The position numbers and the translations under genes are program-made. The notes below the pieces were generated by a model. The model saw only the letters and a list, made by a program, of their open reading frames with translations. It was not told the origin of the DNA and made no database searches. From the NCBI RefSeq assembly GCF_002278135.3, contig NZ_CP029425.2, positions 6,672,001-6,736,000 on the forward strand: a DNA stretch of 64,000 nucleotides. The letters run 5' to 3'. Of the stretch, positions 1,652 to 64,000 are shown piece after piece (position 1 is the stretch's first letter; every line of letters begins with the position of its first letter). Source of the DNA: Bradyrhizobium ottawaense (GTDB lineage: Bacteria; Pseudomonadota; Alphaproteobacteria; Rhizobiales; Xanthobacteraceae).

Positions 1652-1847
1652 TCTGGAGCTCCTCTAGAATAGTGCGCCTCCGCAAGTCGTGCGCAGCAGC
1701 CGTCAGATGAGATCCCACCATCAGCCCGAGCCACTTTAACTTCAAGAGAACGATCGGATCACAAAGCTCGATAGAAAGTCCGGCCCCCAGTATCGCAATG
1801 GCGCGGCGCTCCTCCGCGTCGAGATCAGCCCAGGAAATGCCTTCCAT
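1569..1847 (-). CDS. Conserved hypothetical protein, 92 aa
   Basis: ATG 1847 is preferred over GTG 1850; GAGG lies upstream on the minus strand. The first 65 residues ([20 protein letters not shown], then [14 protein letters not shown] and [10 protein letters not shown]) look like a compact helical orphan protein frequent in Bradyrhizobium. The last 27 residues are low in pattern and overlap the convergent gene, so the original stop may have been lost. No function is known. Confidence 0.5.
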
Positions 1848-2416: not shown

Positions 2417-2469
2417 GGAGGAGGCCGGGTGCGGAGATGGCCGGGGTTTCGGAGCGCCCGGCCTCCTCC
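2417..2469. repeat. Perfect 13-bp inverted repeat beside the IS
   Basis: GGAGGAGGCCGGG at 2417-2429 pairs exactly with CCCGGCCTCCTCC at 2457-2469 across a 27-base spacer. It lies just outside the 3' end of the transposase gene. It could be part of the IS end, a strong hairpin that blocks read-through, or an insertion target. No T-tract follows, so a classical intrinsic terminator is unlikely. Confidence 0.6.
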
Positions 2470-4050
2470 GCTGGCACCTCGCACGTCATTGGGGTGTTGT
2501 GACCTCATGCCCTGGCGGCATTTTTTCTGAAGCAAACAGCAGCGCATTCGCTTGCTCGCTGCGCCAGGATTTCAACCGACGTTGAAGGGTTCGAAGAAGC
2601 TTGTTCGGATAGTCTCCAGGATATTCCACCTGCAGGCGCGAGAGCAGTTCGCTGCCGGTCCGCCAAGGCTCGGCTTCAAACCATTTTCTCAAATCTGACG
2701 TTGCCCGGATAAGCGGATCGGGACGACGCCGGCCCCTTTTAGCCTTCACGATTGGCCGATCCGTCGGGCGCGTGGCGCCGTCCTTCCAGGCCGTTCGCAG
2801 GCTTGCCAGGAAGCGATCAATCGATTGTGATGCCGCAGCAGGATGGGCGGATGGTTGGATATCCGCGAGCGCCGCGAGGCGCTCCTGCACGTCGCGGATG
2901 TCGCGCAACAACGTGACCGGATCGAGAGCGGTATAGATTTCCTGGAGATGGTGGCGGACCGCATCAGGCGTGCGGGCGTCCGCTGACAGGCGCTGGTGGG
3001 GTGTTGCCGGCGCGCTGTATGTCTTACGTACACGAGCACCGTCGCGCTGCTTGGCTAACAGTTTGAACGAAGGTTGGAAGAAGTTTACGAACAGCCGCGC
3101 TGACCGATAGAGTTCCGCCAGTAGCTTGGCCGCCTCCAGGCCTTCGAACCTACGATAGCCGACCATCCTGCGCACGACGGCGCCGTTCTTTTGCTCGACG
3201 AACGCCTGGTCATTCTTCCGGTAGGGACGGCAACGCGTGAAGACAATGTTGGCCGCCTCGCAGTAGGCCTTCAACGTCTCATTCATGAACACGGTGTCAT
3301 TGTCCGTGTCGAAGCCGAGCAGCGCAAAAGGCAATTGCTTGCGCAATTCCGTCAGCACCGTGCTCACCAGCGTCTGTTCGCGCACGATCAGAGGTGCGCA
3401 CTCTGTCCAGCCGGTAGCAATGTCGGTGAGCACGAGGGTCTGGATGAAGCTGCCGCGCGCAGATGGACCGCTATGCGCTACAAGGTCGGCCTCGACGAAT
3501 CCCGGCGCCGGATCATTCCAATCTGCCGAAGTCCGTATTGGAATACTGCGACGCAGGGAATGCCCCGCGTGCCGCCGGCGCTTGCGACCCAATTTTTCTC
3601 GAACCCGCACCAAGGCGCGGTCGATCGTCGCAGCGCTCATCGCCAAAAGTTTGGTGCGAATCTCAGGGGCAAGGTCGAGGTGCCCGTACCGTTCCATCGC
3701 CTCAATCAGCGCGGGCATTAATGCTTTCAGTCGCTTCCCGCAGATGCGGTCTGACGCCTCCCAAAGCAGCACGAGTGCGGTGTGTTCTGCTTCATTATAT
3801 ATCCGACGTCGCGCCCGTCGGCCCGGATGTACGCCTTCCTGGTTTCGAAGTAGACGCATCGCATGCTTCCGATGGAATCCGGTGATGTCGACGAACTCGT
3901 CCAATATCCGCGCCTTCTTCGCGCGATCCGACCGCCGATAGCGCACGCCTGCCGCCGCCGTCAGTTCCTTCCGCGTTGCCATGCTTAGCCACCCCATCTC
4001 CGCCCCTCGCTCGTTCCCGGTCCAGGGGAGCAATTTACGTGAGGCAACGG
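2470..4050 (-). mobile_element. Insertion sequence with rve-type transposase (ISNCY-like)
   Basis: One transposase gene fills the element. Reading outward from each end, the sequences are similar: AATGACGTGCGAGGTGCCA (minus strand of 2473-2491) and AATTTACGTGAGGCAACGG (4032-4050). They share the order AAT, ACGTG, AGG, CA and CGG with small gaps. These are candidate terminal inverted repeats only, and no target duplication is visible. The element abuts the IS21-type element that follows. Confidence 0.5.
2486..3997 (-). CDS. Integrase-core transposase (ISNCY-like)
   Basis: This is a DDE/rve transposase of about 503 residues. The N-terminal part (RKELTAAAGVRYRRSDRAKK, then FVDITGFHRKHAMRLL) looks like an HTH DNA-binding region. 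The catalytic core has Asp in GFVEADLVAHSG, Asp in LLGFDTDNDTVFMN and Glu in YRKNDQAFVEQKNG, the expected D-D-E order. A basic C-terminal tail follows. I choose ATG 3997 because GAGGGGCGG precedes it; an in-frame upstream start at 4033 would add 12 residues. The core looks intact, so it may be active. The subfamily name is from memory of similar Bradyrhizobium annotations. Confidence 0.85.
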   Translation of the reverse strand: MGWLSMATRKELTAAAGVRYRRSDRAKKARILDEFVDITGFHRKHAMRLLRNQEGVHPGRRARRRIYNEAEHTALVLLWEASDRICGKRLKALMPALIEAMERYGHLDLAPEIRTKLLAMSAATIDRALVRVREKLGRKRRRHAGHSLRRSIPIRTSADWNDPAPGFVEADLVAHSGPSARGSFIQTLVLTDIATGWTECAPLIVREQTLVSTVLTELRKQLPFALLGFDTDNDTVFMNETLKAYCEAANIVFTRCRPYRKNDQAFVEQKNGAVVRRMVGYRRFEGLEAAKLLAELYRSARLFVNFFQPSFKLLAKQRDGARVRKTYSAPATPHQRLSADARTPDAVRHHLQEIYTALDPVTLLRDIRDVQERLAALADIQPSAHPAAASQSIDRFLASLRTAWKDGATRPTDRPIVKAKRGRRRPDPLIRATSDLRKWFEAEPWRTGSELLSRLQVEYPGDYPNKLLRTLQRRLKSWRSEQANALLFASEKMPPGHEVTTPQ

Positions 4051-12942: not shown

Positions 12943-15900
12943 CTATGCAACAAATGAATAATCCAGGGCACCAAGATGTGTCACACCCACGATCGTAAGC
13001 TTATCGACTCCGCCAGCAAAGTGGACGGACCACTCGTCTCCCTCGACGGTCAGATACGCGCTTGCGTCATAACCCTTGAAAAGCAGCTTGTCATGCTCAG
13101 CTGTTGAGGTTGTATACACATGGAAGTCAGCGATCGTATCGTGTCCGCTCCCCTTTCCATAGACAAAGGTGTCGTTTCCTTCACCTCCAAACAGCCAATC
13201 GTCGCCTCCTGCCCCATTAAGAATGTCATTGCCACTTGACCCTACCATTCGATTTGCGAGATCGTTTCCGGTTCCTGTCAAGCCCCCCTGCATCAGGGTT
13301 AGATTCTCGACATTTGACGGGAGCGTATACGAAACGCCCCACACCTGAACCGTGTCGACACCTTCGCCCGGGTTCTCGATGATCGTCGTATTTGCAGCAC
13401 CGACGACATAGGTGTCGTCACCGGCGCCGCCGATAAGGGTGTTACCCGTCCCGCCCGCCTTGAGATTGTCGTTCATGGCGGTGCCATAGACGTACTGATC
13501 AGTAGCGGTGCCACTCCAATAACTGAGAGCGGTGCCGCTGGTCGGCAGAGCTCCTGGAAGCTGAAAGTTATCACTCACGAAATCGGAGATCGTTGTCCCG
13601 CGGAAGACCAGTGTCTCATAGGGCGTCAACGTCAGGTAGACGTCGAATCCGACCTGATCCATTTCTGCCTTGATTTCGCCAAACGAAGTGAAGCTAAAGC
13701 CATCCAGCTTGACTACGTCATGATCAATGACACTTCCTGAATGGAAATCGGTGATGATATCCGAGCCATCCCCGAGCTTGATGACAAAGGTGTCGCTCCC
13801 CCCGCCCCCGGTAAGGATATCGTTGCCCTGTCCTCCTGTGATGACGTTATTAGCTGAAGTGCCGATGATGATGTTAGCTTGGCTATTCGCGGTGCCATTG
13901 ATAGCAGCGCCCCCGGTCAAGATGAGGTTCTCAACGTAGTTGGAAAGGGTGTACGAGGTCGATGCCCGCACTGTATCCACTCCGCCCCCGGCGACCTCCA
14001 CGATTTGAGCGTTAGCATCCGTGACGATGTAGGTATCGTCACCAAGGCCGCCGATCATGATGTCGGCACCGCCATTACCTCCGATCAGATCGTTGCCGAC
14101 CGTTCCCGTGAGGGTTTCGGCACTGCTTGTTCCAGCGATCGTGACGGTGTGAGCACCGCTCGACAGAAGGGTGTAATTGGCCAGCGTGTATTCGGGTAGT
14201 TGGTAGGCCTCGATCGAATCGATGATCAGGGTTGCGTTGGATCCAGCGGCTGCGGCTCCAGCCCAGCCACCCATCGCGAGATTGGCAATCATGTACATCG
14301 CCGTATTCATATCTGCGGGCGTGGGAGCCTTGGCAATCTCAGCGCCATCGACAAAGAACGTCAGATCATAGGGTGTCCATTCGACCGCAAATGTATGCAT
14401 GCCCGAAGTGAGATCAGCCGTATTTGCCCAAGCACCCGGGGCGGCCGTCGATCCGGTCGACGAATGGACCTGCCAATGAGCCTGATCCGGGCTCTGCCCG
14501 AATGCCTCGAGAACGTCGAGTTCAGCGCTGTACTGCCCGTTGATCGGCAGCAACCAGAAGGCAGGCCAAGCCCCCGTTGTGCTTGGTAACGTGGCCGTCA
14601 TCTCGAAGTATCCGTAAGTCTGAACGAAGCTGTTTTCGCTCGAGATCATACCGGTGTAGAATTGAGCTCCTCCGACATACGGACTGATGGACGAGGAAAC
14701 CGGCTGAGCAGTGATGACCAATTCGCCATTCTTGATGGAGAACGGGTTGAGGCCGAGCGAACTCGATGCCTGCGTCCCCGGCAGGCCGGTGAAGCTGCTA
14801 TCGACGTAAACGCCCTGCTCCCCGCTCCCGCTCAGCAGATAGCTGGCTGAACCGCTCCATGCGTAGCTTGTCCGCCAAGTCAGACTAGGATCCTGACCGG
14901 CCGACAGCGAATTGAAATCATCGCCAAACGTCTTGATGAGACCCGACTGGGGCGTCACGATGTTGACGTTGGCTGCTACGAAGCTTTGAAGATTGGTGTG
15001 CTCAAGGGTAATCCTCTCGCCGTTTCCGAGGGCAAGGTATACATCCGTGCCTGCTTGCGTCATTGCAGCCTTGACATCGGCAAACGTCTTGAAATTCGTG
15101 CCGCTAATCTGAAGGATGTCCCCAGCCGCTCCAGCGGTAAAATCGATGATGACATCATTTCCATTTCCGGCCTTGATGACGAATGTGTCTATGCCGCCGC
15201 CTCCCAGGAGTACGTCGTTGCCGAGCCCTCCATCGATCATGTTGTTGCCGGCGTTACCGGTGATGATGTTGTTAAGCGCGTTGCCGGTGGCCGGCGCCCA
15301 GGCACTCCCGGTCAGCGTCAGATTCTCGACATTTGGCGCATTGACGAGGCTATAGCCGTCGTAGTTTCCAACCAGGATCGTATCGACGCCTTGGCCGGCC
15401 TGTTCGACGACCTTTGTCGTGCGATCGTAGATGACATAGGTGTCGTCGGCGGCGCCTCCAACGAGAGTCACCGCCGCGCCGCTGGCCTGCAGCTTGTCGT
15501 TTCCCAAAGTCCCGTACAACGTGCCGGTCCCAGCAGCGGCTGGCGCAAAGCTCGCGGTTGCGCTTGCGGGCAAAGGATTGTCGAGCTGGACATTGGCGGC
15601 AGCCAGCGACGTGAGCGTCGCGTTTTTCAATGTTACAGTCTCGGCGCTAGACAGCACTATGACCGTATCAGAGCCAACCTGCTTGGCAGCCGCCAGGAGA
15701 TTCGCAAAAGTTGCGAATCCGTAGTTCTGGACTCGCAGCACATCACCGCCAGCGCCGGCTTGGAAATCACTGACGACATCCGAGCCGTAGCCTTTGGAAA
15801 CCACGAATAAGTCGCTGGCTCCGCTTCCGGTCAACACATCGTTGCCGGAGCTTCCGAATACGATACGACCTGCCGCGACCGGAGCCGGCGGTTCTGTTGC

Positions 15901-17151
15901 TGCAATAGTCAGGCTAGCAGTGGATAGTGCGGTCAGCGATCCGTCGGACGCCGTGTAGTTGAAGCTCACCTGTCCGTAGTAATCCGCTGCCGGCGTATAC
16001 GTCCAGGTGCCATTGCCGTTGTTGACGATACTGCCACCACCGCTCGCCACACTGACCGAGGAGATCGAGAGCGACGAGCTGTCGACGTCCGTAACTCCAG
16101 CAAGCAAGGCCGCCGCACTGATCGTATAGGAGACATCCTCCGTACCTGCAGCAAGCGTTACCGGCTTGGCCACCGGCGCGTCGTTGACTGCCGCGAGCAT
16201 CAAACTGGCGGTCGATGTTGCAGTCAGCGATCCATCGGACGCAGTGTAGTTGAAGCTGACCTGTCCGTAGTAACCCGCTGCCGGCGTGTACGTCCAGGTG
16301 CCATTGCCGATGTTGACAATGCTGCCACCACCGCTCGCCACGCTGACCGAGGTGATCGAGAGCGAAGAGCTGTCGACGTCCGTGACTCCAGCAAGCAAGG
16401 TCGCCGCACTGATCGTATAGGAGACATCCTCCGTACCTGCAGCAAGCGTTACCGGCTTGGCCACCGGCGCGTCGTTGACTGCCGCGAGCATCAAGCTGGC
16501 AGCCGATGTTGCAGTCAGCGATCCATCGGACGCGATGTAGTTGAAGCTGACCTGTCCGTGGTAATCCGCTGCCGGCGTGTACGTCCAGGTGCCATTGCCG
16601 TTGTTGACGATGCTGCCACCACCGCCCGCCACGCTGACCGAGGTGATCGAGACCGAAGAGCTGTCGGCGTCCGTGACTCCACCAAGCAAGGTCGCCGCAC
16701 TGATCGTGTAGACAGTGTCCTCGATACCTGCGGCCAAGGCTATAGGGCTCGCCACTGGCGCATGATTGACAGCCTCATTGACGAGGAGGACATTCTCGGC
16801 TGTCAGCGAATTCAGCTTTATGTTGCTTAGAGTTAGAGATTCGCTATCTGAGAGATTAATGACGACATCAGATCCGACTTGCTTCGCTGCAGCCTTGAAG
16901 GCCGCGAAACTCGTAAAGCCATAATTCTCGATGCGCAGTATGTCTCCACCTGCGCCACTAGTAAAATCCCTAATCGTGTCGGAGCCAAATCCCTTGGAGA
17001 TTACAAACGTGTCGCTTCCGGCTCCCCCCGTCAGCAAATCGTTACCTGCGCCCCCAGAAAGCACGTCGTTCCCGGAAGTACCGATTACAATGCTCGCATA
17101 ATCGACCTTCTGGGTCTTCGTTGAGGTCGTCGAAATTGTTGATTTTGCCAT
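12943..17151 (-). CDS. RTX protein with GH16 glycanase and VCBS-like repeats
   Basis: A secreted protein of about 1402 residues. ATG 17151 (MAKSTISTTSTKTQKVDY) is chosen over 17202 because the acidic, signal-less N-terminus suits type I secretion. In order it has an RTX block with GGAGNDLLTGGAGSD (about residues 22-62), three VCBS/cadherin-like repeats (about 128-420), RTX-like blocks (about 430-720), a GH16 domain (about 742-982) with GAWPAFWLLP and the catalytic ELDVLEAFG, and four more RTX blocks to the C-terminus. GH16 enzymes cut beta-1,3/1,4-type glycans, and the layout recalls rhizobial ExsH/PlyA glycanases exported by PrsDE. No type I transporter is in the window. It is transcribed divergently from gmd, with EPS as the likely substrate. 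Confidence 0.88.
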   Translation of the reverse strand: MAKSTISTTSTKTQKVDYASIVIGTSGNDVLSGGAGNDLLTGGAGSDTFVISKGFGSDTIRDFTSGAGGDILRIENYGFTSFAAFKAAAKQVGSDVVINLSDSESLTLSNIKLNSLTAENVLLVNEAVNHAPVASPIALAAGIEDTVYTISAATLLGGVTDADSSSVSITSVSVAGGGGSIVNNGNGTWTYTPAADYHGQVSFNYIASDGSLTATSAASLMLAAVNDAPVAKPVTLAAGTEDVSYTISAATLLAGVTDVDSSSLSITSVSVASGGGSIVNIGNGTWTYTPAAGYYGQVSFNYTASDGSLTATSTASLMLAAVNDAPVAKPVTLAAGTEDVSYTISAAALLAGVTDVDSSSLSISSVSVASGGGSIVNNGNGTWTYTPAADYYGQVSFNYTASDGSLTALSTASLTIAATEPPAPVAAGRIVFGSSGNDVLTGSGASDLFVVSKGYGSDVVSDFQAGAGGDVLRVQNYGFATFANLLAAAKQVGSDTVIVLSSAETVTLKNATLTSLAAANVQLDNPLPASATASFAPAAAGTGTLYGTLGNDKLQASGAAVTLVGGAADDTYVIYDRTTKVVEQAGQGVDTILVGNYDGYSLVNAPNVENLTLTGSAWAPATGNALNNIITGNAGNNMIDGGLGNDVLLGGGGIDTFVIKAGNGNDVIIDFTAGAAGDILQISGTNFKTFADVKAAMTQAGTDVYLALGNGERITLEHTNLQSFVAANVNIVTPQSGLIKTFGDDFNSLSAGQDPSLTWRTSYAWSGSASYLLSGSGEQGVYVDSSFTGLPGTQASSSLGLNPFSIKNGELVITAQPVSSSISPYVGGAQFYTGMISSENSFVQTYGYFEMTATLPSTTGAWPAFWLLPINGQYSAELDVLEAFGQSPDQAHWQVHSSTGSTAAPGAWANTADLTSGMHTFAVEWTPYDLTFFVDGAEIAKAPTPADMNTAMYMIANLAMGGWAGAAAAGSNATLIIDSIEAYQLPEYTLANYTLLSSGAHTVTIAGTSSAETLTGTVGNDLIGGNGGADIMIGGLGDDTYIVTDANAQIVEVAGGGVDTVRASTSYTLSNYVENLILTGGAAINGTANSQANIIIGTSANNVITGGQGNDILTGGGGSDTFVIKLGDGSDIITDFHSGSVIDHDVVKLDGFSFTSFGEIKAEMDQVGFDVYLTLTPYETLVFRGTTISDFVSDNFQLPGALPTSGTALSYWSGTATDQYVYGTAMNDNLKAGGTGNTLIGGAGDDTYVVGAANTTIIENPGEGVDTVQVWGVSYTLPSNVENLTLMQGGLTGTGNDLANRMVGSSGNDILNGAGGDDWLFGGEGNDTFVYGKGSGHDTIADFHVYTTSTAEHDKLLFKGYDASAYLTVEGDEWSVHFAGGVDKLTIVGVTHLGALDYSFVA
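15890..16765 (-). repeat. Three 291-bp tandem repeats inside the RTX gene
   Basis: The DNA repeats with a period of exactly 291 bases (97 codons): TCGTTGACTG occurs at 16181 and 16472, and its diverged counterpart at 16763. Each unit encodes a VCBS/cadherin-like domain running from NDAPVAKPVTLAAGTEDV to DGSLTATSTASLMLAAV. The two C-terminal units are nearly identical at DNA level, so they duplicated or were homogenised recently. Such arrays can expand and contract by recombination. Confidence 0.9.
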
Positions 17152-51572: not shown

Positions 51573-53159
51573 ATGAGATTACAGCGGCCGAACCTCTCGT
51601 TTGCGGCGCTCGTTATTGCGAGCACGATGGCGTTCGGGCTGGCGGGCCATTTTGCGGCAGACGGCGTCATTCGCCACCAGCAGGCGCACCAACTGAACGA
51701 GCTGACCGAGGTCGTTCTGCGCCGCTCCGAGTTTGCGGTCGATTTCGCCGCGGCCAGCCTCGACGAACTCGCCAACCGTGATCTTGCCAGCTGCGCGCCG
51801 GCAGCGCTGCAAGCCATCCGGCTCCACGTTTACCAGCGCTCGGCGATCAAGGACGTCCGTCTCGTCAACCCGGACGGATCGGTGATCTGCTCGGCCTATT
51901 CCGAGACGCTGGAGTTCGACAAGGGATGGGCGGATCGCCGCGACATGCTGCCCTCGCACGACAAGACGCTCTCGCTGTTCCGCGTGGAGCAGTTCGGCGG
52001 CGACGCATTGGGCGTGCTCAGGGACGTCAATCGCAGCTCCGCGCTGGTCGCCATCGTCGGCATCAACGCCGGCCTGTTCGATCTCATGCCCGCCGAGCTG
52101 CGCGCACACAGCGAGGTGATCCTCGCCTTGAGCAATGGCGAGAAGCTCGGCGAATTCCGGCTCGACGCCGACAGGCCCCTGTCAGAGCCGATCAGCTTCG
52201 ACAGGCATTCCACGCGCTTCCCGCTTCACGCCACGATCCGGCTCGAGCACGCCGTGCTTTCGAGCTGGAACAGCGAGGCCTATTGGCCGGCGCTCGCGGT
52301 GGCCCTTGGGCTTGGCGCACTGTTCGGCATCCTGCTGGCACGCAGCCGCCGGATGGAAGGACCGGTCGCCGATCTCGATCGCGGCCTCGCGGCCGGCGAA
52401 TTCAAACCATACTACCAACCCATCTTCGACCTCAGGACGGGCCGGATCACGGGCTGCGAGATTCTGGCGCGCTGGGTTCGTCGGGACGGCTCGGTGGTGC
52501 CGCCGATGAACTTCATTCCGCTGGCCGAATCCAGCGGGCGCATCCAGGTGATGACCTGGCAGATCCTGAAATCGGCACTCGCCGACCTGCAGGGCGTGCT
52601 GAAGGCGGACAAGACCTTCGAGATGTCCGTGAATGTCGTGCCCAAGCACCTGCTGAGTGCCGGCTTCGTCGAGACGCTGCGTCGCACGGTCCTGGCGGCG
52701 AGAATCTCCGCACGCCAGATCGTGGTTGAAGTCACCGAACGCGACGAGCTCGACGATCTCGCGCACGCCGCGACCGTCGTGGCCGAATTGCGCGACCACG
52801 GCTTCCGCGTCGCAATCGACGACGTCGGCGTGGGTCACAGCGGTCTGTCGCGGCTGAAGGGGCTCGGCGCCAACACGATCAAGATCGACAAGTTCTTCGT
52901 CGACACCATCACCGTGGATGCATCGACCACGACGATCGTCGAGATGTTGGTCGCGCTGGCCAAGGACTTCCGCATGACGGTCGTAGCAGAAGGAATCGAG
53001 ACCGAGGAGCAGCGCCGCGCCCTGATCGCCTCCGGCGTCGAGGAAGGACAGGGCTATCTCGTCGCCGCACCGCTGCCCTATGCGAAATTCAGCGAGTTGG
53101 TCGATTCACGCCGCCACTCCGCATCCGCAGCGCCGGCCGGCGGCGTCCTGGTGGCCTGA
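51573..53159 (+). CDS. CSS-motif EAL c-di-GMP phosphodiesterase
   Basis: A 528-residue inner-membrane protein. After one membrane helix (about 9-27), the periplasmic CSS-motif domain has Cys74 (LASCAPAAL) and Cys106 (DGSVICSAY), whose disulfide is known in this family to set activity. A second helix (about 238-258) leads to the EAL domain. There CEILARW replaces the usual EAL triplet by EIL with the catalytic Glu kept, and MSVNV, VEVTER, IDDVG and VAEGIET are all intact. It should cleave c-di-GMP. Targets could include the PilZ proteins here. Confidence 0.9.
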   Translation: MRLQRPNLSFAALVIASTMAFGLAGHFAADGVIRHQQAHQLNELTEVVLRRSEFAVDFAAASLDELANRDLASCAPAALQAIRLHVYQRSAIKDVRLVNPDGSVICSAYSETLEFDKGWADRRDMLPSHDKTLSLFRVEQFGGDALGVLRDVNRSSALVAIVGINAGLFDLMPAELRAHSEVILALSNGEKLGEFRLDADRPLSEPISFDRHSTRFPLHATIRLEHAVLSSWNSEAYWPALAVALGLGALFGILLARSRRMEGPVADLDRGLAAGEFKPYYQPIFDLRTGRITGCEILARWVRRDGSVVPPMNFIPLAESSGRIQVMTWQILKSALADLQGVLKADKTFEMSVNVVPKHLLSAGFVETLRRTVLAARISARQIVVEVTERDELDDLAHAATVVAELRDHGFRVAIDDVGVGHSGLSRLKGLGANTIKIDKFFVDTITVDASTTTIVEMLVALAKDFRMTVVAEGIETEEQRRALIASGVEEGQGYLVAAPLPYAKFSELVDSRRHSASAAPAGGVLVA

Positions 53160-53807: not shown

Positions 53808-54254
53808 CTACTTCATCATCTGCCCGCGCAATTCGCCGCCTGGGTTCGCGGCCGTATGAATGTTCGCGTACCATTTGCCGGCCAACAGGTCCGCCGCCTG
53901 GGCATCCGTGAGCGTGGCGCTGCCCTGGATAGGACTCTGGACCGTCTTGAAGGGCAAAGCGATGCCGGCGTTCTTGCCCGCATCACCGGGGCCATGAAAA
54001 TGGGCGCCCATCGCCGGACCAGTCAGATTGGCAAACGTAATCGTATAGGTCAGAACTTTGGTCTGGGTGTCGAACGCGGCCTCGGCCTTGCCCGAACCGG
54101 ACGAGCCGTTCGGAGGCACTTCATTGCTGCCCTTGAGGTCGGCCTGCAGCTTGACGACCTCCGCACGTGACGGCGCGGTTGTGACGATCAGCAGCCCACC
54201 GAGCATCACCGTTCCCAACAGCGTCACGCCGACCCAATACTTGGCTTTCCTCAT
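53808..54254 (-). CDS. Secreted CHRD-domain protein, 148 aa
   Basis: A signal peptide (about residues 1-31) is followed by a CHRD domain: KLQADLKGSNEVPPNGSSGS, TYTITFANLTGPAMGAHFHG and GKWYANIHTAANPGGELRGQ. The HxHGP and YxNxHT-x3-PxGExRGQ patterns define the family. The domain binds unknown ligands in exported bacterial proteins. It is one of the clearer periplasmic assignments here. The intergenic palindrome lies beyond its stop. Confidence 0.9.
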   Translation of the reverse strand: MRKAKYWVGVTLLGTVMLGGLLIVTTAPSRAEVVKLQADLKGSNEVPPNGSSGSGKAEAAFDTQTKVLTYTITFANLTGPAMGAHFHGPGDAGKNAGIALPFKTVQSPIQGSATLTDAQAADLLAGKWYANIHTAANPGGELRGQMMK

Positions 54255-54799: not shown

Positions 54800-55246
54800 C
54801 TAAGATGCGGGAGGCCTGGAAGGCGCGGGAAATTGGCGCGGCCGCGAACGGCTGTCGAGGCCCTTGGGCAATTTGTCATTGAGCTTCACGACGGCGCCTC
54901 GAGCCTCCGTCGCCGGCGCATCCTCCTGGCTGTAGATCAGCGTCACCTCGAACATCACGTCGGGCGCTTCCCTGGCCGTTCCGGAGCAGGTCGCCATCGC
55001 ACCGCTGCACACGCCGGCGAGGCGGACCTCGACCTCGTCCAGACCGAACACGGTCGGCGGCCCCTCGGCATAGCGCCGCGTGGTCAGGACGGCCGTGAAG
55101 CGCTGGTCGTCACCGAACTGATAGGAGCCGCCATAGGTAAAGAAGCTGTCGCTGCCGGAAATCCGTCCGTCCGCCAGATGCACGATGCCCGTACCCTGGC
55201 CGCGCGGGGTCCTGAACCAGGCCGCATATTTGCCGTCTCTCATCAT
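54800..55246 (-). CDS. GrlR-like protein, 148 aa
   Basis: From ATG 55246 (MMRDGKYAAWFRTPRGQGTG, then IVHLADGRISGSDSFFTYGG), the core is a beta-rich barrel of the GrlR type with RFTAVLTTRRYAEGPPTVFG. GrlR proteins in enteric pathogens bind a regulator of type III secretion; in rhizobia the family is widespread with unknown function. Two cysteines (residues 80 and 87 region) and the last 25 charged residues are not part of the core. A longer start at 55375 is rejected. Confidence 0.7.
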   Translation of the reverse strand: MMRDGKYAAWFRTPRGQGTGIVHLADGRISGSDSFFTYGGSYQFGDDQRFTAVLTTRRYAEGPPTVFGLDEVEVRLAGVCSGAMATCSGTAREAPDVMFEVTLIYSQEDAPATEARGAVVKLNDKLPKGLDSRSRPRQFPAPSRPPAS

Positions 55247-55387
55247 GGAAATGTCCGCCGTAGAATTCACTGGTATTTGCAACCAACTCTGGGGCGCGAC
55301 AATGACCGACGCGGCGAGTATTCCGCGACGGTTAACGCCCTGCAAAGCCAACCCGTCAAATTGCCACCGCAGCACGCGGCGACGCCG

Positions 55388-57121
55388 TCAGAACAATTCT
55401 ATGCCGTCATCCGCGGTCTCGACCGCCTCGACGCGGCGCGTCGCGGCGATCGACTTAAGTCCTACCGCTTGCAGGAATTCACGATGAACGTCCCGCTCAC
55501 GCTCCATCGTGTAGCGCGCGAAGAGATCGTCGAGGATCGCCTGATCCCGCAGCTCCGGCTGTAGCAGCTGCGCCCCGGTGCTCGCAGTCTCGAGCCGCGC
55601 GGCGACCGCAGGCAAGGCTGCGGAGCTTTCGCCGAGCCTGGTCATCAGACCCTGGGCCGAATTCATCAGCCTCTCGAACTCCGCGCCTTCGTCGACGAGC
55701 CGGCTCATCAGCTTGCCGAGCCGTTCATTGCCGGCCTCGACCTCGCGCAGGGCCTGAAGGATTTGCGGCTCGAGCTTGGCAAGCTGGGTGGGATCACCCT
55801 GCACGCGGAGCTCCTTCAGCTCATTGGCCGAGCGCTCGATGCCATCGAGCACGGGCCTCAGGCGCCCCGCCCCCGCGGAGACCTGGTCGGCGGTCGCCTT
55901 GAGCTCGTTGGCGATGACGACGAAGGCGCTGCCGCGGCTGCCGAGATGGCTCGCCTTGAGGCCGGCATTCATTCCGATCAGCGTGATGTCGACGGTCGCC
56001 TCGGCAAGCCCGGCGATCGCCTGGCGAAATTTCGTCAGCGTGTCCTCGACGATCGCGAGCGCATCGTCGACCGAGCGGCCGGCACTCTCGCAGGTGGCGA
56101 TCAGGGTCGATGCGTGTGCCAGCGTCTGCTTGATGCGCGTCAGGAACGACGACGAGCCGCCCTCCTCGCCGCCGAACAGCGTGCGGCCGTGGCCGACGAC
56201 GCTGCCAGCATCGTGCAGGATCGCCGTCAGTGCGCCGACGATCTGACCGACGTCACCGCCGAACTCGCGCTGGGCATCCCTGAGCTGGGCCGCCTGCAAC
56301 CGGCAAATCGCACCCACGCCGTCATCGCTCGGCATCGTTTCAGGAACGAGGCTCGGCGCGGATTCCGACGCAAGGCCGAGGCCATGGGACACGTGCTCGA
56401 GACGCTGACGCGTGCTGTCGCCCGCCTGCAGCGAGATGATCGCGCTGCCGACCGCCTCGGCGATCTTCCTGGTGCTGGCACTGGCGCGGTCGGCCAAATG
56501 GCTGCTCTTGCTGCGCTGGTCGCGTAACCCCGAATAGGCCGCGCCGAGCTCGGCGCTTTCCGACACCAATTGGGCCCGATACCGGCTCTCGAACTCCTTC
56601 TGCCGGCCGGAGGCGGTGGCAACCGCTTCGGACAGGCGCTGCTGGTCCCGCGCGCAGCCTTCGATCGAGCGCTGCACGGCCCTGCCGAGATCGTAGGCTT
56701 CCTGGGTGAAGGCGAGAAAGCCCTCGCGGTCGCCGTCGAGCGAGGCCGCCTCGATCCGCGCGCTGCGCGCGATGATGGTGATCATCCCGATGTGCTTAAA
56801 CAGCGGCTTGAGCAACGAAGACGCCTCTGCCGTGCTCTTGCCGATCGTCTCCAGCAGCGCGCTCTCCGCCGGCAGCGCCTGCGCCAACTCGCTCAACCGC
56901 GCCGCGATCTCCTGCAGCGCCGTTGCGGCGCCCTCGATCTCGGCGCCGGAAAGCTCACCTGAGAGCGTAGCTAAGCCCTGGTTCAGCTCCTTGAAGATGA
57001 GGTGGCCGCGTCCGAGTTCCTGACCGACGCGCGCAAAGACGTCCTCGATGCGCGAGGAGACGTCCTCGATCGCGGTGGTTGCCTCGGTGAGTGTGTTGGC
57101 CGGAACGGGCGACATGGCCAT
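55388..57121 (-). CDS. Soluble MCP-like protein with two degenerate signalling tips
   Basis: A 577-residue all-helical protein with no membrane segment. ATG 57121 overlaps the cheB stop as TGATG. Two regions copy the MCP hairpin tip: residues 110-150 (IGMITIIARSARIEAASLDG then DREGFLAFTQEAYDLGRAVQ) and 377-416 (VDITLIGMNAGLKASHLGSR then GSAFVVIANELKATADQVS). The canonical tip in the MCPs of this operon is [20 protein letters not shown] then [15 protein letters not shown]. Both copies lose the key Glu residues that bind CheA and CheW. It could be a scaffold or antagonist of the receptor array, or a separate sensor. The role is inference. Confidence 0.75.
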   Translation of the reverse strand: MAMSPVPANTLTEATTAIEDVSSRIEDVFARVGQELGRGHLIFKELNQGLATLSGELSGAEIEGAATALQEIAARLSELAQALPAESALLETIGKSTAEASSLLKPLFKHIGMITIIARSARIEAASLDGDREGFLAFTQEAYDLGRAVQRSIEGCARDQQRLSEAVATASGRQKEFESRYRAQLVSESAELGAAYSGLRDQRSKSSHLADRASASTRKIAEAVGSAIISLQAGDSTRQRLEHVSHGLGLASESAPSLVPETMPSDDGVGAICRLQAAQLRDAQREFGGDVGQIVGALTAILHDAGSVVGHGRTLFGGEEGGSSSFLTRIKQTLAHASTLIATCESAGRSVDDALAIVEDTLTKFRQAIAGLAEATVDITLIGMNAGLKASHLGSRGSAFVVIANELKATADQVSAGAGRLRPVLDGIERSANELKELRVQGDPTQLAKLEPQILQALREVEAGNERLGKLMSRLVDEGAEFERLMNSAQGLMTRLGESSAALPAVAARLETASTGAQLLQPELRDQAILDDLFARYTMERERDVHREFLQAVGLKSIAATRRVEAVETADDGIELF

Positions 57122-58212
57122 CAACCTGCCACCGCGGCGTGCCCGGCCTGATACCAGAGCATGATCTCCCGCGGGATGTGATGCAGCGAAACGACCTTTT
57201 CGACGCCGCCATGGGCGATGGCTTCCTTGGGCATGCCGAACACCACGCAGCTCTCTTCGTCCTGCGCCCGCGTTGAGGCGCCGAGCTTGCGCATCTCCAG
57301 CATCCCGCGCGCGCCGTCGTCGCCCATCCCCGTCATGATGACGCCGAGCGCGTTGGCGCCGGCATGCTGGGCCGCCGAGCGGAACAACACGTCGACTGAG
57401 GGGCGATGCCGCGACACCGGCGGACCGTCCTTGATCGCGATCTGGTAGCGCAGACCGATGCGCTGGAGCAGCATGTGGCGGGCGCCGGGCGCGATATAGG
57501 CGCAGCCCGGCAACACCGGCTCACCGTCCTCGGCTTCCTTGACCTTGATCTGGCAGACGCCGTCGAGACGCTTGGCAAAGGCCGCGGTGAAGCCTGCCGG
57601 CATGTGCTGGACGATGAGAAGCGGCGGACAGTGCGCCGGCAGCATCTCGAGGACATCGTTGAGCGCCTCGGTCCCGCCGGTCGACGCACCGATACAGACG
57701 ATGCGCTCCGTCGTCGGCCGGACCCTGCCCTGCACCGGCGGCGGGATGATGGCGTCGGCGGTCAGCTTCTTCTCGATGGACCGGCGTTCCGCACGCGGGC
57801 GCACCCGCGCGCGCGCAGCCGACTTCACCGCCTCGCGCAGCCGTGTCGAGCATTCGAGCAGCGCCTGCCGCGTATCGATCTTCGGCTTCGGCACGATGTC
57901 GACCGCGCCCGCCTCGAACGCCTCGAACATCACGTTCGAGCCCTCTTCGGTCAGCGAGGAGCAGATGATCACCGGGATCGGGCGCTGCGCCATGATCTTG
58001 CGCAGGAACGTCATGCCGTCCATGCGCGGCATTTCCAGGTCGAGGATCATCACGTCGGGGATCTCGTTCTGGAGGCGCTTCGCCGCCACGAAAGGATCGG
58101 AGGCCGCTCCCATCACCTCGATATCGGGATCGTCGTTGAGAATCGTCTGCAGGATTTGGCGCACCGACGCCGAATCGTCCACGATCAGTACGCGAACCTT
58201 CTCCCTCGGCAT
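57121..58212 (-). CDS. cheB: Chemotaxis methylesterase/deamidase CheB
   Basis: A 363-residue response regulator. The receiver domain (residues 1-125) has [14 protein letters not shown] and the phospho-acceptor Asp in [13 protein letters not shown]. The esterase domain (about 165-355) has the triad Ser in [11 protein letters not shown], His in [11 protein letters not shown] and Asp in [13 protein letters not shown]. It removes methyl groups from MCPs when phosphorylated by CheA. It ends as TGATG with the next gene and lies 16 bases after cheR. Confidence 0.95.
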
Positions 58213-58228: not shown

Positions 58229-59083
58229 CTAGACCTGGAAAATGGTTGGCTGAACCTGCTTCAGCCCGGGCACGGCACTGTGAATCATCGATTCCGAATG
58301 TCCGACCAGCAAATAGCCGCCCGGACGCAAATGGCTGCACAGTTGCTCGACCACCTTGCGCTGGGTCTCGCGCTCGAAATAGATCAGGACGTTGCGGCAG
58401 AAGATGATGTCGACATCGCGATCGACCGGATAGGACTTGTCCATGAGGTTCATCCTCATGAAATGTGTCGCGCGCCGCAGCTCGGGTACGACCCGCACCT
58501 CACCGCGCGACTTGTCCCGCGACGTCGAAAAATATCGTTTCACGAATTGCTCCGGCACCGGGCCGAGCACGTCGCGCGTGTAGATCGCCGTCTTGGCGAG
58601 GCGCAGCACCGCGGTCGAGATGTCGGTCCCGAGAATGCGGTACTGGAAGCGCGATCCGTTCCGCGTCATGTCGTCCAGCACCATCGCGGTGGTGTAGGCC
58701 TCCATGCCGGTGGAGCTCGCCGAGCTCCAGATCTTCAGGTTCGCGTTCTTGCGTCCATGCGACTTGAGCAGGCCGGGGATCGCGACGTCGCGCATGAAGG
58801 TGAAGTGCTGCGGCTCGCGGAAGAAGTCGGTCTTGTTGGTCGTCACCACATCGATGAGATGGGTGAGCTCGGTATCGAAATGATCCGCCTCAAACAGGTT
58901 CTCGACATATTCGTTGAGACCGGTGAAGTTGAGCGCGCGCACGCGCTTGTGCAGCCGCCCCTCCAGCATCAGCCGCTTGCCCTGCGGCAGCTTGATGCCG
59001 ACCTGGCCCTCGATCAGTTCGGCGATGGTGCGGAAGTGGCGGTCCGATAGATGCTCGGCCGTATCCTGTGCAGCGGGCATCAT
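58229..59083 (-). CDS. cheR: Chemotaxis methyltransferase CheR
   Basis: A 284-residue enzyme that methylates MCP glutamates using S-adenosylmethionine. The N-terminal helical domain (about 1-85) has [20 protein letters not shown]. The Rossmann domain has [33 protein letters not shown] (SAM motif), [14 protein letters not shown] and [12 protein letters not shown]. The C-terminus ends [20 protein letters not shown]. It pairs with CheB in the adaptation system. Confidence 0.95.
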
Positions 59084-59219: not shown

Positions 59220-61025
59220 CTAGCGCTGGAAATCGGCGTCCCGATCGTCCTCGCCGTCATGCATGTCGAAGGCAAAACCGCCGCCACCGGCAACCTTCAC
59301 GGCGCGGGCCGGCCTGGCCTGCACGACCTTTTTCGCCGGACGCTCGGCAGCCGCCATGGTGGCCGCCTTGGCGCGCAGCTGGCTCACAGCCCGGTCGATC
59401 GGCGCCGGTGCCTGGCTCTTCACGCCGTGCTCGATGCGGAAATAGGCGATGGTGGACTGAAGCTGTTCGGCCTGCGAAGCGAGCTCCTCAGAGGTCGACG
59501 ACACCTGCTCGGACGCGCTGGCGTTCTGCTGGCCGACCTTGTCGAGCTGCTGGATCGCCTGGTTGATCTGAGCCGATCCGACGTCCTGCTCGCGGCAGGC
59601 CGCGGTGATCTCCTCAACGAGCTCGGCGGTCTTCTTGATGTCAGGGACCAGCTTGGAGAGCATGGAGCCCGCCTCCTGCGCCACCTTGACGGTGTCGGCC
59701 GAGAGCGTGCCGATCTCGGCCGCGGCGGCCTGGCTGCGCTCGGCGAGCTTGCGCACTTCGGAGGCGACCACCGCAAAGCCCTTGCCGTGCTCGCCGGCGC
59801 GCGCGGCCTCGACCGCGGCGTTGAGCGCGAGCAGATCGGTCTGGCGTGCGATCTCCTGCACGATCGTGATCTTCTCGGCGATGGTCTGCATCGCGTTGAC
59901 GGCGCGGCCAACGGCAGCGCCGCTTGCCTCCGCGTCCTTGGCGGATTGCGCGGCGATCTTCTCGGTCTGGTTGGCGTTGTCGGCGTTCTGCTTCACGTTC
60001 GAGGCCATCTCCTCCATCGAGGAGGACGCTTCCTCGGCGGACGAGGCCTGCTCGGTCGCGCCCTGCGACAGCTGCTCGGCGCTCGCCGAGAGCTCCTGGC
60101 TGCCGGCCGAGACGTTCTGCGCCGCGGTCAGCGCTTCGGACACGATCTGGCGAAGCTTCTCCACCATGCGCTCGAGCGCAAGGCCCAGCGTGTCCTTGTC
60201 CGACAGCGGCTTGGCTTCGATCGTGAGGTTGCCCTGCGCGATCTCGTTGGCGACGGCCGCGGTGGAGTTCAGATTGGCGGTCATCGCGTTCAGAGATTTC
60301 ACGAGATCGCCGATCTCGTCGTTGCTGGACGTATCGATCTTGTGGCTGAGATCGCCGATCGCGACGGCATCCGCCAGCCCGACCGCCTTGGCGAGGGACC
60401 GGCTGATATTGATCGAGATCCAGACTGCGCCGATCGCGGCAACGATGAGCGAGACGATGACGAGGACGATCAGAACCAACTGGGCGCGACGGCTGTCTTC
60501 GTTGGACTGCACGGCCTGCTCGGCCATCTGCCTCTTCGTATTGGCGACATAGGCTCCCATCGCCTCCGTCGCATCTGCAACCACCTTGCGCCCGTCACCC
60601 ATCGAGCGCTCGGTTGCCTTGGTCTTATCGGTCTTTGCCAGCCTGATCGTCTCTTCCTGATAGACGTTCATTCGGGCGTAGGCGCTGGCGAAGTTGTCGA
60701 GCAGCTTCTTGCCGCCTTCGCTGGCGAGGGCATGGACCTCGTCCCTGATCTTCATGGCCTCATCGCGGAGCTTGGCCGCGTTCACCGCGAATTCCTCGGC
60801 CTCGCCTGGCGTTCCCAGAATTGCGTTCTTTTCCGCCCTGACCTGCTGCCAGATGATCTTCTCGACCTCGGCTGCTTTCTCCATCCGCTTGGCGCGAAGC
60901 ACCATGGAATCTGCGGTCGCGGCCATGTCGGACAACTTCATGTAGCTCACGGCGCCTGCTACCATGAACAGAAGAATGACGACGCCAAACGCGCTGGCGA
61001 GCTTGGCTTTGACGGTGAATCTCAT
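59220..61025 (-). CDS. Methyl-accepting chemotaxis protein, 601 aa
   Basis: Membrane helices at about 10-30 and 186-208 enclose a four-helix periplasmic sensor. A HAMP domain (about 209-262) is followed by a second HAMP-like segment ([20 protein letters not shown]), absent from the other MCP here. The signalling tip is [20 protein letters not shown] with [13 protein letters not shown]. It ends [20 protein letters not shown] followed by R, a tail shared with the second MCP. The ligand is unknown. It lies between cheR and a cheW gene. Confidence 0.95.
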
Positions 61026-61086: not shown

Positions 61087-61575
61087 TCAGGCGGCGCGAG
61101 GCGCATCTGTAGCCGTGTCGCGGCCTTCCGGAACTTTGTCATTGGCCATCAGCTTGGCGAGATCGAAAATCACGACGAACTTCTCGCCCTTGCGGCCGAT
61201 GCCGGCGGCATAGTCCGATTGCCATTTCCCGCCGACCTCTGGCACGGGCTCGATCGCCTGCTCGTCGATGTCGGTGACCTCGAACACGCAATCGGCGACG
61301 AAGCCGACGCCGACGAGGCGGTCCTTCATCGGCACGTCGAGGATGATGATGCGGGTCGCTTCGGTGGCGGCCACGCTGGGCAGGCCGAGCTTGTTCCTGA
61401 GATCGACGATCGGATAGCCGCTGCCGCGCACGTCGATCATGCCGAGCAGAAAGTTCGGCGCGTGCGGGAGCCGCGAGATCGGCCGCATGTCGAGAATCTC
61501 CCGGACGTTGCGGATGCTGATGCCGAACGTCTCGCCGGCGAGCCCGAGCGTCAGATATTGCGAGGTTGCGGCCAT
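61087..61575 (-). CDS. cheW: CheW adaptor, 162 aa
   Basis: From ATG 61575 (MAATSQYLTLGLAGETFGIS) the SH3-like CheW domain runs to about residue 145, with IRNVREILDMRPISRLPHAP, FLLGMIDVRGSGYPIVDLRN and KFVVIFDLAKLM. It couples MCPs to CheA. The longer upstream reading overlaps intergenic sequence and is not used. The last 15 residues are an extra polar tail. A second cheW is at 63373. Confidence 0.93.
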   Translation of the reverse strand: MAATSQYLTLGLAGETFGISIRNVREILDMRPISRLPHAPNFLLGMIDVRGSGYPIVDLRNKLGLPSVAATEATRIIILDVPMKDRLVGVGFVADCVFEVTDIDEQAIEPVPEVGGKWQSDYAAGIGRKGEKFVVIFDLAKLMANDKVPEGRDTATDAPRAA

Positions 61576-61637
61576 GATGCAGTCCAGGATTCCAGATTGG
61601 GAATGGGCACGGTCCGGCATAAGGCCGGACCGGTTGA

Positions 61638-63335
61638 TCAGCGTTGGAACTCGGCGTCGCGATCGTCTTCGCCGTCATTCATGTCGAAGGCGAAGCCACC
61701 GCCACCGGCGACTTTCATCGCACGTGCCGGCTTGCGGGCAGGCACCGGCTTCTTCATGCCGCGATCAGCGGCCGCCATGTGCGCAGCCTTGGCCCGGAGC
61801 TGACCGACGGCGCGGTCGATCGGCTCGGCTGCCGCTTTCTCTCGGCGCGCAGCTTGCTCGATCCGGAAGAACGAGATGGTGGACTGCAGCTGCTCGGCTT
61901 GCGAGGCGAGCTCCTCCGAGGTCGAGGACACCTGCTCGGAGGCGCTGGCGTTCTGCTGGCCGACCTTGTCGAGCTGCTGGATCGCCTGGTTGATCTGGGC
62001 CGAGCCGACGTCCTGCTCGCGGCAGGCCGCGGTGATCTCCTGCACCAGCTCAGCGGTCTTCTTGATGTCGGGCACGAGCTTGGACAGCATCTGGCCGGCT
62101 TCCTGGGCGACCTTCACGCTCTCCGTGGACAGCGTCCCGATGTCGGCTGCGGCGGCCTGGCTGCGCTCGGCAAGCTTACGCACTTCGGAGGCGACCACCG
62201 CAAAGCCCTTGCCGTGCTCGCCTGCGCGCGCGGCTTCCACGGCCGCGTTGAGCGCGAGCAGGTCGGTCTGGCGTGCGATCTCCTGCACGATCGTGATCTT
62301 CTCGGCGATGGTCTGCATCGCCTCGACGGCACGGCCCACGGCGACACCGCTGGCTTCGGCGTCCTTGGCCGACTGCCCCGCAATCTTCTCGGTCTGGTTG
62401 GCGTTGTCGGCATTCTGCTTCACGTTCGAGGCCATCTCCTCCATCGAGGAGGAGGCTTCCTCGGCGGACGAAGCCTGCTCGGTCGCGCCTTGCGAGAGCT
62501 GCTCGGCGCTCGCGGACAGCTCCTGGCTTCCGGCGGAGACGTTCTGCGCCGCAGTGATTGCCTCGGCGACGATCTGCCGGAGCTTTTCGACCATCCCATT
62601 CAGCGACTTGATGAGATCTCCGATCTCGTCGTTGCTCGCCGAAGGAATGGTCTGGCTGAGATCGCCCTCAGCGACCGCACCTGCAAGGCCAACGGCCCTT
62701 CCGAGCGAACGGCTGATCGAGATGGAAATCCAGAGCGCAGCCCCGATCGCGACCGCCAGCGAGATGCCGATCAGCGTCATCAGCAGGAATTGGGCCTGGT
62801 GCCCCTCTGCCTTGGACTGGACAGCCTGCTCTGCCATCTGCTTCTTCGTATTGGCGACATAGGCGCCCATGGATTCCATCGCGTCTGCGACGACCTTGCG
62901 GCCGTCACCCATCGAGCGCTCCATGGCCTTCGTCTTGTCGGTCTTCGCCAGCCGGATCGTTTCTTCCTGGTAGGTATTCATCTTCGCGTATGTGGCTGCG
63001 AAGCTGTCGAGCAGCTTCCTGCCGCCCTCGCTCGCCAGCGCGTAGACTTCGTCCCTGGTCTTCATCGCTTCCTCGCGAAGCCTGGCGGCCTCGGCGGCAA
63101 ACTGGTCGGCCTGAGCCTCCGTGCCGAGCACCGAGTTCTTCTCGGCGCGCAGCTGAAGCAGGATGTCCTTTTCGATCTGCGTCGCCTTTTCCATGCGGTT
63201 TGCGCGCAGAACCATGCTGTCGGCGGTCGCCATCATGTCGCCGAGCTTCATGTAAGCCACGCCGCCCGCGATCCCGGACAGGACGATGATCACGCCGAAC
63301 GCACTGGCAAGCTTTGCCTTGACGGTAAATCTCAT
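61638..63335 (-). CDS. Methyl-accepting chemotaxis protein, 565 aa
   Basis: A paralogue of the 601-residue [23 protein letters not shown], a four-helix sensor between two membrane helices (about 10-30 and 186-205), one HAMP domain and the same signalling hairpin. It is shorter because the second HAMP-like segment is missing. The tail [20 protein letters not shown] with R matches the other MCP at all but two positions. Sensor regions differ mainly in the periplasmic part. It is flanked by two cheW genes. Confidence 0.95.
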
Positions 63336-63372: not shown

Positions 63373-63834
63373 TCAGTTTAGAATGCGTTCCATGTTCGGA
63401 ACGATGACGAACTCTTCACGCCACTTGGCAATGAAGCGAATGAACTCCGGCTTCCAGTGCATGCCGACGCGCGGTGTCTGCTGCACGTCGGTCTGGGAGA
63501 TCTCCGTGACCTCGTAGACCTTGTCGGCGGTGACGCCGACCAGAACCGGCTCGCCGTCGAGCTCGAGCTCGATGACCACGATGCGCGTATCGGCGGAATC
63601 ATCGAGCTGCGGCATGCCGAAGCGGATGCGCAGGTCGGCGAGCGGAATGACGTTGCCGCGCACGTTGATCACGCTGGGAACGAAGGCGCGCGCGCCTGCC
63701 ACCTTGGTCACGGGGACGGGATCGATGATCTCGCGCACGAGGCCGGCGTCGAGCGCGAACTTCTCCTCGCCAAGGCCGATCATCACAACTTGCATCGCGT
63801 CAGCCTGCCGTTCGCCAGCCAAACCATCGTTCAT
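63373..63834 (-). CDS. cheW: CheW adaptor, 153 aa
   Basis: ATG 63834 overlaps the upstream cheA stop as TGATG; GTG 63837 is a less likely start. The CheW domain has QVVMIGLGEEKFALDAGLVR, ARAFVPSVINVRGNVIPLAD and LRIRFGMPQ. It is a divergent paralogue of the protein at 61087. Two CheW proteins suggest separate adaptor roles or arrays. Confidence 0.93.
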   Translation of the reverse strand: MNDGLAGERQADAMQVVMIGLGEEKFALDAGLVREIIDPVPVTKVAGARAFVPSVINVRGNVIPLADLRIRFGMPQLDDSADTRIVVIELELDGEPVLVGVTADKVYEVTEISQTDVQQTPRVGMHWKPEFIRFIAKWREEFVIVPNMERILN

Positions 63835-64000
63835 CACGCCGCCTCGCTGATATGCTGCTTCTCGACCTTCGACTGCGCCAACGCGACGAGCTGCGCGACG
63901 TCGAGGATCAATGCCGCCGTGCCATCGCCCAGGATGGTCGCGCCCGAGAACATCGTGACATCCGAATGCAGCTTTGAGAGCGACTTGATCACGGTCTGGT
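63834..64000 (-). CDS. cheA: CheA histidine kinase, C-terminal end (partial)
   Basis: Only the last 55 codons are in the window. The minus frame reads QTVIKSLSKLHSDVTMFSGA, then TILGDGTAALILDVAQLVAL and ends ISEAA. GATILGDGTxALILDV is the conserved end of the CheW-like regulatory domain of CheA. The stop TGA overlaps the start of cheW. The gene continues past the right edge. Confidence 0.9.
   Translation of the reverse strand, partial: QTVIKSLSKLHSDVTMFSGATILGDGTAALILDVAQLVALAQSKVEKQHISEAA

Follow-up and report, generated by a model that had tools for sequence, protein, structure and literature searches.

What does a soluble, receptor-like protein do directly behind cheB, where a chemotaxis operon ends? 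The question is raised by a gene of Bradyrhizobium ottawaense that lies in a 64,000-nucleotide stretch of DNA (the window) from a genome consisting of a single contig of 8.59 Mb. A sequence-only reading had taken its product for a membrane-free, MCP-like protein with two signalling tips, coupled to cheB, and had suggested a non-signalling or inhibitory place in the receptor array, a bridge between receptors, or a scaffold for CheB/CheR. What it observed is partly confirmed below, with corrections, and its interpretation is partly supported. Three features absent from it, a DxxxQ block, a YTM block and an acidic tail ending in Phe, were found to be more informative than the tips.

The gene and its operon

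The gene and the operon genes in the window are as follows:

55388..57121, minus strand: the gene, encoding a 577-residue protein with two MCP-like hairpins, the DxxxQ and YTM blocks and the acidic tail
57121..58212, minus strand: cheB (receiver plus methylesterase), whose stop has one base in common with the start of the gene
58229..59083, minus strand: cheR
59220..61025, minus strand: transmembrane MCP (4HB, HAMP, MCPsignal)
61087..61620, minus strand: cheW
61638..63335, minus strand: transmembrane MCP (4HB, HAMP, MCPsignal)
63373..63837, minus strand: cheW
63834..64000, minus strand: 3' end of cheA; cheA, cheY and a STAS gene run on past the window (L050)

In the direction of transcription the order is STAS-cheY-cheA-cheW-mcp-cheW-mcp-cheR-cheB-gene, and the two cheW genes encode one CheW domain apiece. 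The two MCPs (59220-61025 and 61638-63335, minus strand) are alike, stand in tandem on either side of a cheW and probably arose by duplication. The che operons of B. diazoefficiens were described in 2026, with CheA proteins of 949, 949 and 636 aa versus 691 aa for the CheA here; in the available part of that report 'CheZ' occurs in the reference list only (PMC13390405). An F8 system has been described in a plant pathogen (PMC11253619). Downstream of the gene, in most Bradyrhizobium loci, is a 191-aa ORF without a Pfam match (54800-55375, minus strand); a CHRD-domain protein (53808-54254, minus strand) and a CSS-motif EAL membrane protein (51573-53159, plus strand) are encoded near the operon.

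The start of the gene does lie on the cheB stop as had been noticed, TGA 57123-57121 and ATG 57121-57119 having one base in common. This tie to cheB holds in other genomes. A scan of named genomes with the pattern DxTRQR[LI]EH, from which the best 80 of 477 relatives were retained (mostly Bradyrhizobium), placed cheB on the same strand no more than 150 bases upstream in 79/80 loci; at the 80th (L183) the contig begins ~109 bases upstream of the gene. These loci are mostly from Bradyrhizobium or Rhodopseudomonas, with others from Devosia, Alsobacter, Azospirillum and Lichenibacterium. A whole-sequence search at the level of the order gave 12 homologues. Seven lie directly behind a called cheB (L034-L040), one has cheR upstream and a cheB uncalled by the gene picker (L041), two adjoin STAS-cheY-cheA (L042, L044), one has a cheB-like fragment close by (L043) and one has no labelled chemotaxis neighbour (L045). 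The nearest named proteins are from Bradyrhizobium, many of them titled 'chemotaxis protein'. Other homologue names ('MlaD', 'YhgE', 'phage shock protein A', 'chromosome segregation ATPase') and the SMC models that match the protein look like coiled-coil artefacts and were set aside.

Two receptor-type hairpins with unequal tips

The two halves of the protein divide as follows:

56366..57100, minus strand: hairpin 1 (residues 8-252), of receptor signalling-domain origin
56681..56788, minus strand: tip 1 (residues 112-147), E124 and E141 kept, turn at 127-131
55622..56326, minus strand: hairpin 2 (residues 266-500), a second copy with no DxxxQ at the corresponding place
55886..55993, minus strand: tip 2 (residues 377-412), with K389 at the central Glu site and E406 retained

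The protein is soluble by hydropathy, its Kyte-Doolittle maximum over 19 residues being 1.36 versus 3.29 and 2.44 in the two operon MCPs. An AlphaFold2 model of the whole protein, made with 24 sequences (mean pLDDT 83.1, pTM 0.60), shows two helical, antiparallel hairpins that turn at 127-131 and 392-393, and the N-half modelled alone forms one hairpin (pLDDT 86.1, pTM 0.53). All ten PDB chains matched by the N-half model at Foldseek E<0.001 are chemoreceptors, some of these chains sharing entries and two coming from integrative models. Residues 79-180 of that model superpose on residues 340-441 of an E. coli core-unit receptor fragment (6s1k) over 102 residues at 1.9 Å; the receptor tip, which we take to be at ~390 in this numbering, places residue 129 near the tip. 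In profile comparisons the C-half matched ordinary MCPs (Prob 96.6, E 6e-10) and the N-half gave Prob 3.1. The reading of a soluble, MCP-derived protein with two hairpins is thus right, since two hairpins are modelled, the N-half resembles chemoreceptors in structure and the C-half resembles MCPs in profile. Whole-model searches with Foldseek and VIA-align 2 also returned chemoreceptors and were left out as family evidence because diverse long helical bundles score alike. A sequence search of solved structures with the C-terminal piece of a relative gave nothing useful.

The tips themselves are degenerate to different degrees. Against MCPsignal (PF00015), tip 2 matched weakly (E 0.0023, 18.2 bits, under the curated cutoff of 34.6) and tip 1 did not match. 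It had been claimed that both tips lack the conserved Glu residues. For tip 1, ARIEAASLDGDREGFLAFTQEAYDL, this is incorrect, the Glu of 'IEAAR' (E124) and that of 'xEVRxL' (E141) both being present; for tip 2, NAGLKASHLGSRGSAFVVIANEL, it stands for the first Glu site only, which has Lys, and E406 is present. This central site of tip 2 is K/R in 14/15 aligned members and L in one (the window's protein included), and tip 1 carries a 4-residue deletion in 4/15.

An internal duplication of a single-tip family

A family of MCP-like proteins of ~330-450 aa has one intact MCP tip, a QFQDxxxQ motif ~110 residues beyond it and a tail ending in F, and is encoded beside cheB or cheY. Both halves of the protein were compared with this family using hhalign, with reversed profiles as controls. 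The N-half matched it with tip and DxxxQ in register (Prob 98.4, E 7e-15, 190 columns; reversed 1.8), and the C-half with the tip, the YTM block and the tail all aligned in register (Prob 99.0, E 9e-18, 296 columns; reversed 1.0). Similar values were obtained with the gamma/beta branch of the family (N-half Prob 97.2, reversed 0.6; C-half 99.3, reversed 6.1), and the halves matched each other (Prob 77, reversed 3.0). Because both halves match the family in register and match each other, the protein is, by profile comparison, an internal duplication of the single-tip family with split retention: copy 1 retained DxxxQ; copy 2, which has no DxxxQ, retained the YTM block, the tail and the tip that is closer to that of an MCP.

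Single-tip proteins were found in 17/190 alphaproteobacterial class genomes (E<=1e-20). The gene lies directly behind cheB at L046, L047, L049, L228 and L230, and a STAS gene follows it at L233 (by Pfam) and at L230 and L231 (by eye); receiver-SpoIIE phosphatase genes lie near it at L228. It stands immediately before cheY in 4/7 gamma/beta loci (L219, twice; L221; L222; L225), the gene picker having left it uncalled in the other three; cheA, cheR and other che genes lie behind cheY, with STAS and CheD recognised by eye. At L219, two adjacent pairs of single-tip (McpA-like) gene plus cheY (1661-3285 and 14572-16154) flank one chemosensory cluster. One 696-aa ORF of another genome (L128/L130, G208) has two tandem single-tip matches, perhaps an independent, parallel duplication.

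Had the homologues been ordinary soluble MCPs with intact Glu residues, the idea of a special role would have lost its ground. The single-tip relatives do have intact tips; nearly all of those listed also have DxxxQ, and most the F-ending tail, which sets them apart from ordinary MCPs. In two sets of 112 proteins of at least 330 aa, taken from 120 listed of 676 hits and from 119 others listed out of 7995, 105/112 and 108/112 have an FQD-type DxxxQ at 90-140 residues beyond the tip, versus 0/22 ordinary MCPs with DxxxQ at that distance. F is the last residue in 101/112 and 112/112, and a YT[MTLV]-type string occurs near the end in 52/112 and 105/112.

The DxxxQ block is the most conserved part of the protein

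The conserved elements outside the tips are these:

56393..56431, minus strand: LQAGDSTRQRLEH (residues 231-243), CheZ-like DxxxQ block with D235 and Q239, the most conserved stretch of the family
55481..55519, minus strand: ARYTMERERDVHR (residues 535-547), YTMxxERxxH block, common to many single-tip relatives
55391..55420, minus strand: acidic tail ETADDGIELF (residues 568-577), a candidate for binding CheY

Conservation was ranked over 569 nine-residue windows in 12 non-redundant members (mean entropy 2.01). The top window is GDSTRQRLE (234-242, entropy 0.40), within the consensus LQxGDxTRQR[LI]EHV at 231-244, and the next separate block is YTMERERDV (537-545, entropy 0.94), within YTMxxERxxH at 537-546. 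The windows of tips 1 and 2 rank 28th and 25th (entropy 1.28 and 1.27); they are conserved above average, so the tips may have some role. The DxxxQ block ranks first, above the tips, and an inhibitory array member or receptor bridge is unsupported as the main role.

The DxxxQ of the protein is D235-S-T-R-Q239. Its conservation in the 79 aligned loci of named genomes was discounted as circular, the scan pattern having been DxTRQR[LI]EH, and only searches free of the motif were counted. In the 15 relatives from whole-sequence or whole-profile searches (12, plus L084, L085 and L086), D and Q are kept in 15/15, and D.[TA].QR[IL] is present in 15/15 aligned members. Among 267 genes at 17 loci, D.T.QR[IL] occurs in 11, all of them family members.

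Resemblance to CheZ

CheZ, the phosphatase that acts on CheY-P, has DxxxQ as its catalytic motif; its C-terminal region binds CheY-P, and the Gln right before the Asp is the most conserved site of its AXXFQ motif, according to the available part of PMC7750401. The protein reads LQAGDSTRQRLEHV at the motif and has Gly at the AXXFQ Gln site (SLQAGD), where single-tip relatives mostly read QFQD. Alphaproteobacterial CheZ proteins mostly carry FQD[LI]TGQR[IV] and end in QDDIDALF or similar, and the single-tip family mostly QFQDRxxQ with ends DDIELF or EITFF. The end of the protein, DDGIELF, and those of its relatives, GEDLDSLLF or DDMDLDALMF, resemble the CheZ tails QDDIDALF and VDDLLDSLGF in sequence. 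The pattern D.[TS].QR[ILV] is present in 24/24 alphaproteobacterial CheZ proteins, of which only the R and the next residue are independent because these proteins were selected by [FY][QE]D[LIM][TS]GQ.

Matches to CheZ models are found in the relatives. The Pfam CheZ model (PF04344; cutoff 30.7 bits, reached by none) matched 4/10 scanned single-tip proteins at E<0.001: P0217 (25.7 bits, E 1.2e-5) and P0239 (24.8), both selected for the scan by a precomputed CheZ label, P0223 (21.9) and P0228 (21.4). These four also match MCPsignal at ~99 bits. Of the remaining six, none matching CheZ at E<0.001, one had a weak match (14.4 bits) and five none; the precomputed Pfam column names CheZ for 2/120 and 1/120 listed single-tip relatives. 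The protein itself has no Pfam CheZ match. When all ORFs of 112 loci were searched with a combined alpha and gamma CheZ profile, the one match at E<1e-3 was a single-tip member (23.1 bits, E 3.4e-5), which was also the sole match of the gamma profile (E 8e-4); the alphaproteobacterial profile alone matched nothing in these loci.

Profile-profile comparison of the single-tip family with CheZ gave Prob 63.9, 11.5, 73.6, 54.8, 30.2, 20.7, 7.5, 5.6 and 1.9, a spread that depends on the alignments used, with reversed controls below 10 except one at 19.6. The N-half gave Prob 0.4-8.5 and its DxxxQ piece alone 0.5-24.7. With the combined CheZ profile it was the C-half, which is without DxxxQ, that scored best (Prob 48.5, reversed 9.9); part of the CheZ signal is therefore a shared helical background. 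Wherever a printed alignment covers the motif, its D and Q are paired with those of CheZ. In a CheZ-profile scan of 2865 ORFs the top match was a family member (E 7.5e-4) aligned off the motif; weak matches were enriched in family members, but the scan is not used as main evidence, since the database itself is rich in the family and the motif lies outside many of the local alignments. CheZ was absent from the matches listed (50 rows each) of every structure search.

The geometry differs as well: CheZ has its motif ~45 residues away from the turn of its hairpin, and the distance from tip to DxxxQ in the protein is ~105 residues. CheZ has one short hairpin versus two long MCP hairpins per chain here; in both, DxxxQ sits on a hairpin's second helix, and the acidic tail that follows has Phe as its last residue or beside it. 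No CheZ was found in the cluster of the gene. With the alphaproteobacterial CheZ profile, no CheZ at E<1e-4 was found in 113 sources, the positive control of 26/26 being so by construction, as the profile was built from the CheZ proteins of those loci. The B. ottawaense genome has another CheZ, and 8/12 genomes of the order that encode a full-length homologue, that of the window left aside, are not among the CheZ-positive genomes; this genome-level absence is not used because other CheZ genes may serve other systems. We conclude that motif, tail and context show a real resemblance to CheZ, and that descent from a common ancestor is possible, the profile comparisons being suggestive and short of proof.

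A putative phosphatase for the CheY-P of the operon

We propose that the gene product is a putative receptor-derived, CheZ-type phosphatase for the CheY-P of its own operon, with a probability of roughly 0.55. Points for this reading are the top conservation of DxxxQ, the CheZ-like motif and tail, the DxxxQ past the tip in single-tip relatives, the Pfam CheZ matches among these relatives, their adjacency to cheY, the lack of a CheZ match in the 113 sources and the published F7 clusters with cheY but no cheZ; against it are the Gly before the Asp, the lack of a Pfam CheZ match in the protein, the weak profile scores, the longer distance from tip to motif and the other CheZ in the genome. The two hairpins would pack as a pseudo-dimer in one chain. 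The acidic, F-ending tail would catch CheY-P, as the C-terminal helix of CheZ does, and D235 and Q239 would then speed hydrolysis of the aspartyl phosphate. This would end the signal of the operon, and further receivers of the same system may be dephosphorylated too. Those single-tip relatives whose tips are intact would act likewise from inside the array, and the soluble protein with its degenerate tips off the array or loosely attached to it.

The strongest rival, though we consider it rather unlikely, is an adaptor or sink in which the tail and the DxxxQ face bind and buffer phosphorylated receivers (CheY, CheB, the HD-type regulator) without catalysis. The conserved face and the tail speak for it equally, Gly-Asp in place of Gln-Asp could mean that catalysis has been lost, and a receiver-HD gene lies just past the STAS gene here and recurs at homologue clusters. 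However, D and Q are strict in 15/15 relatives found by motif-free searches, and a pure binder need not retain both.

A slightly poorer candidate is an array member that joins one or more CheA/CheW baseplates through its two degenerate tips, bridging layers in the manner of DosM or diluting receptors as a decoy. DosM, an F9 receptor with two signalling domains, bridges two baseplates (PMC7534058, PMC9321776, as far as the available text goes), and the two MCP-like hairpins with tips conserved above average would fit such a role. Both proteins have two signalling-type hairpins in one soluble chain (here modelled), those of DosM being placed at the two ends of a single rod. DosM, however, has recognised signalling domains and F9 partners including a triple CheW (PMC9321776, available part), whereas here the tips are degenerate and the two cheW genes separate. 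The K/R at the central Glu site of tip 2 and the deletion in tip 1 weigh against tips that work in an array, and the better-conserved DxxxQ and YTM blocks, together with the tail, would go unexplained. Bridging is thus less likely than the phosphatase reading; the conserved though degenerate tips may still have some role in the array. Least probable by far is a tether or scaffold for CheR/CheB acting through a C-terminal pentapeptide (for that of CheB, see the available part of PMC7698151), which the place beside cheB and the final F might suggest, but the tail GIELF has I at the second position of the last five residues where the tether rule x-[HFYW]-x2-[HFYW] asks for H, F, Y or W, and in McpA a V at that position blocks binding to each of four CheR proteins (PMC7184735, available part).

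McpA-like receptors of F7 systems

The single-tip family matches the McpA-like receptors (CttP/PA0180, VCA1088) by position, conserved C-terminus and an N-terminal hydrophobic stretch, the last measured in two gamma/beta members (P0217, P0326); the comparison took in relatives, some named Pseudomonas, and the family was matched to these receptors by their published description. As far as that source is available (PMC7184735, 2020), McpA-like receptors of F7 systems have a strikingly conserved C-terminus whose role is 'important yet unclear', are dispensable for the F7 array, and belong to clusters that have cheY at stages 1 and 2, with cheZ confined to F6 systems. The stage-1 order given there is STAS-cheY-cheA-cheW-cheW-aer2-cheR-cheD-cheB-mcpA-STAS-phosphatase. 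The gene studied here occupies the same slot, at the cheB end of STAS-cheY-cheA-cheW-mcp-cheR-cheB, a likeness of gene order, though cheR and cheB have no cheD between them. With the single-tip family, which is homologous to both halves, the protein shares DxxxQ, the YTM block and the tail; unlike in McpA-like receptors, there are two tandem copies with degenerate tips and no membrane segment (maximum hydropathy 1.36).

A wider reading, to which we give somewhat less than even odds on these comparisons, is that McpA-like and duplicated alphaproteobacterial 'chemoreceptors' are CheY-P phosphatases built on a receptor hairpin, terminators within or derived from the array that would supply the phosphatase F7-type systems apparently lack and with which CheZ may share ancestry. 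What has been filed under 'receptors of unclear role' may then be a family that switches the signal off. If the conserved parts are an active site of the CheZ type and a tail that binds CheY, the conserved C-terminus, the dispensability for the array and cheY without cheZ, all puzzles of F7 systems, would share one answer; receptors would have been turned into signal terminators, and CheZ might have originated in this way. The soluble protein with its duplication is the informative case, keeping the proposed enzyme (DxxxQ intact) and having partly lost the receptor (tips degenerate). In the openly licensed literature, no CheZ-MCP hybrid and no named role or CheZ function for McpA-like proteins was found among the matches listed.

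Receiver-HD neighbours

Just past the window a receiver-HD gene (L050:3825-4988), which we take to be of the HD-GYP type, points away from the operon's STAS gene in divergent orientation. Such a gene recurs at or near the homologue or its cluster at L042, L203, L206, L208, L226 and L227. This recurrence suggests that the system may feed cyclic-di-GMP control.
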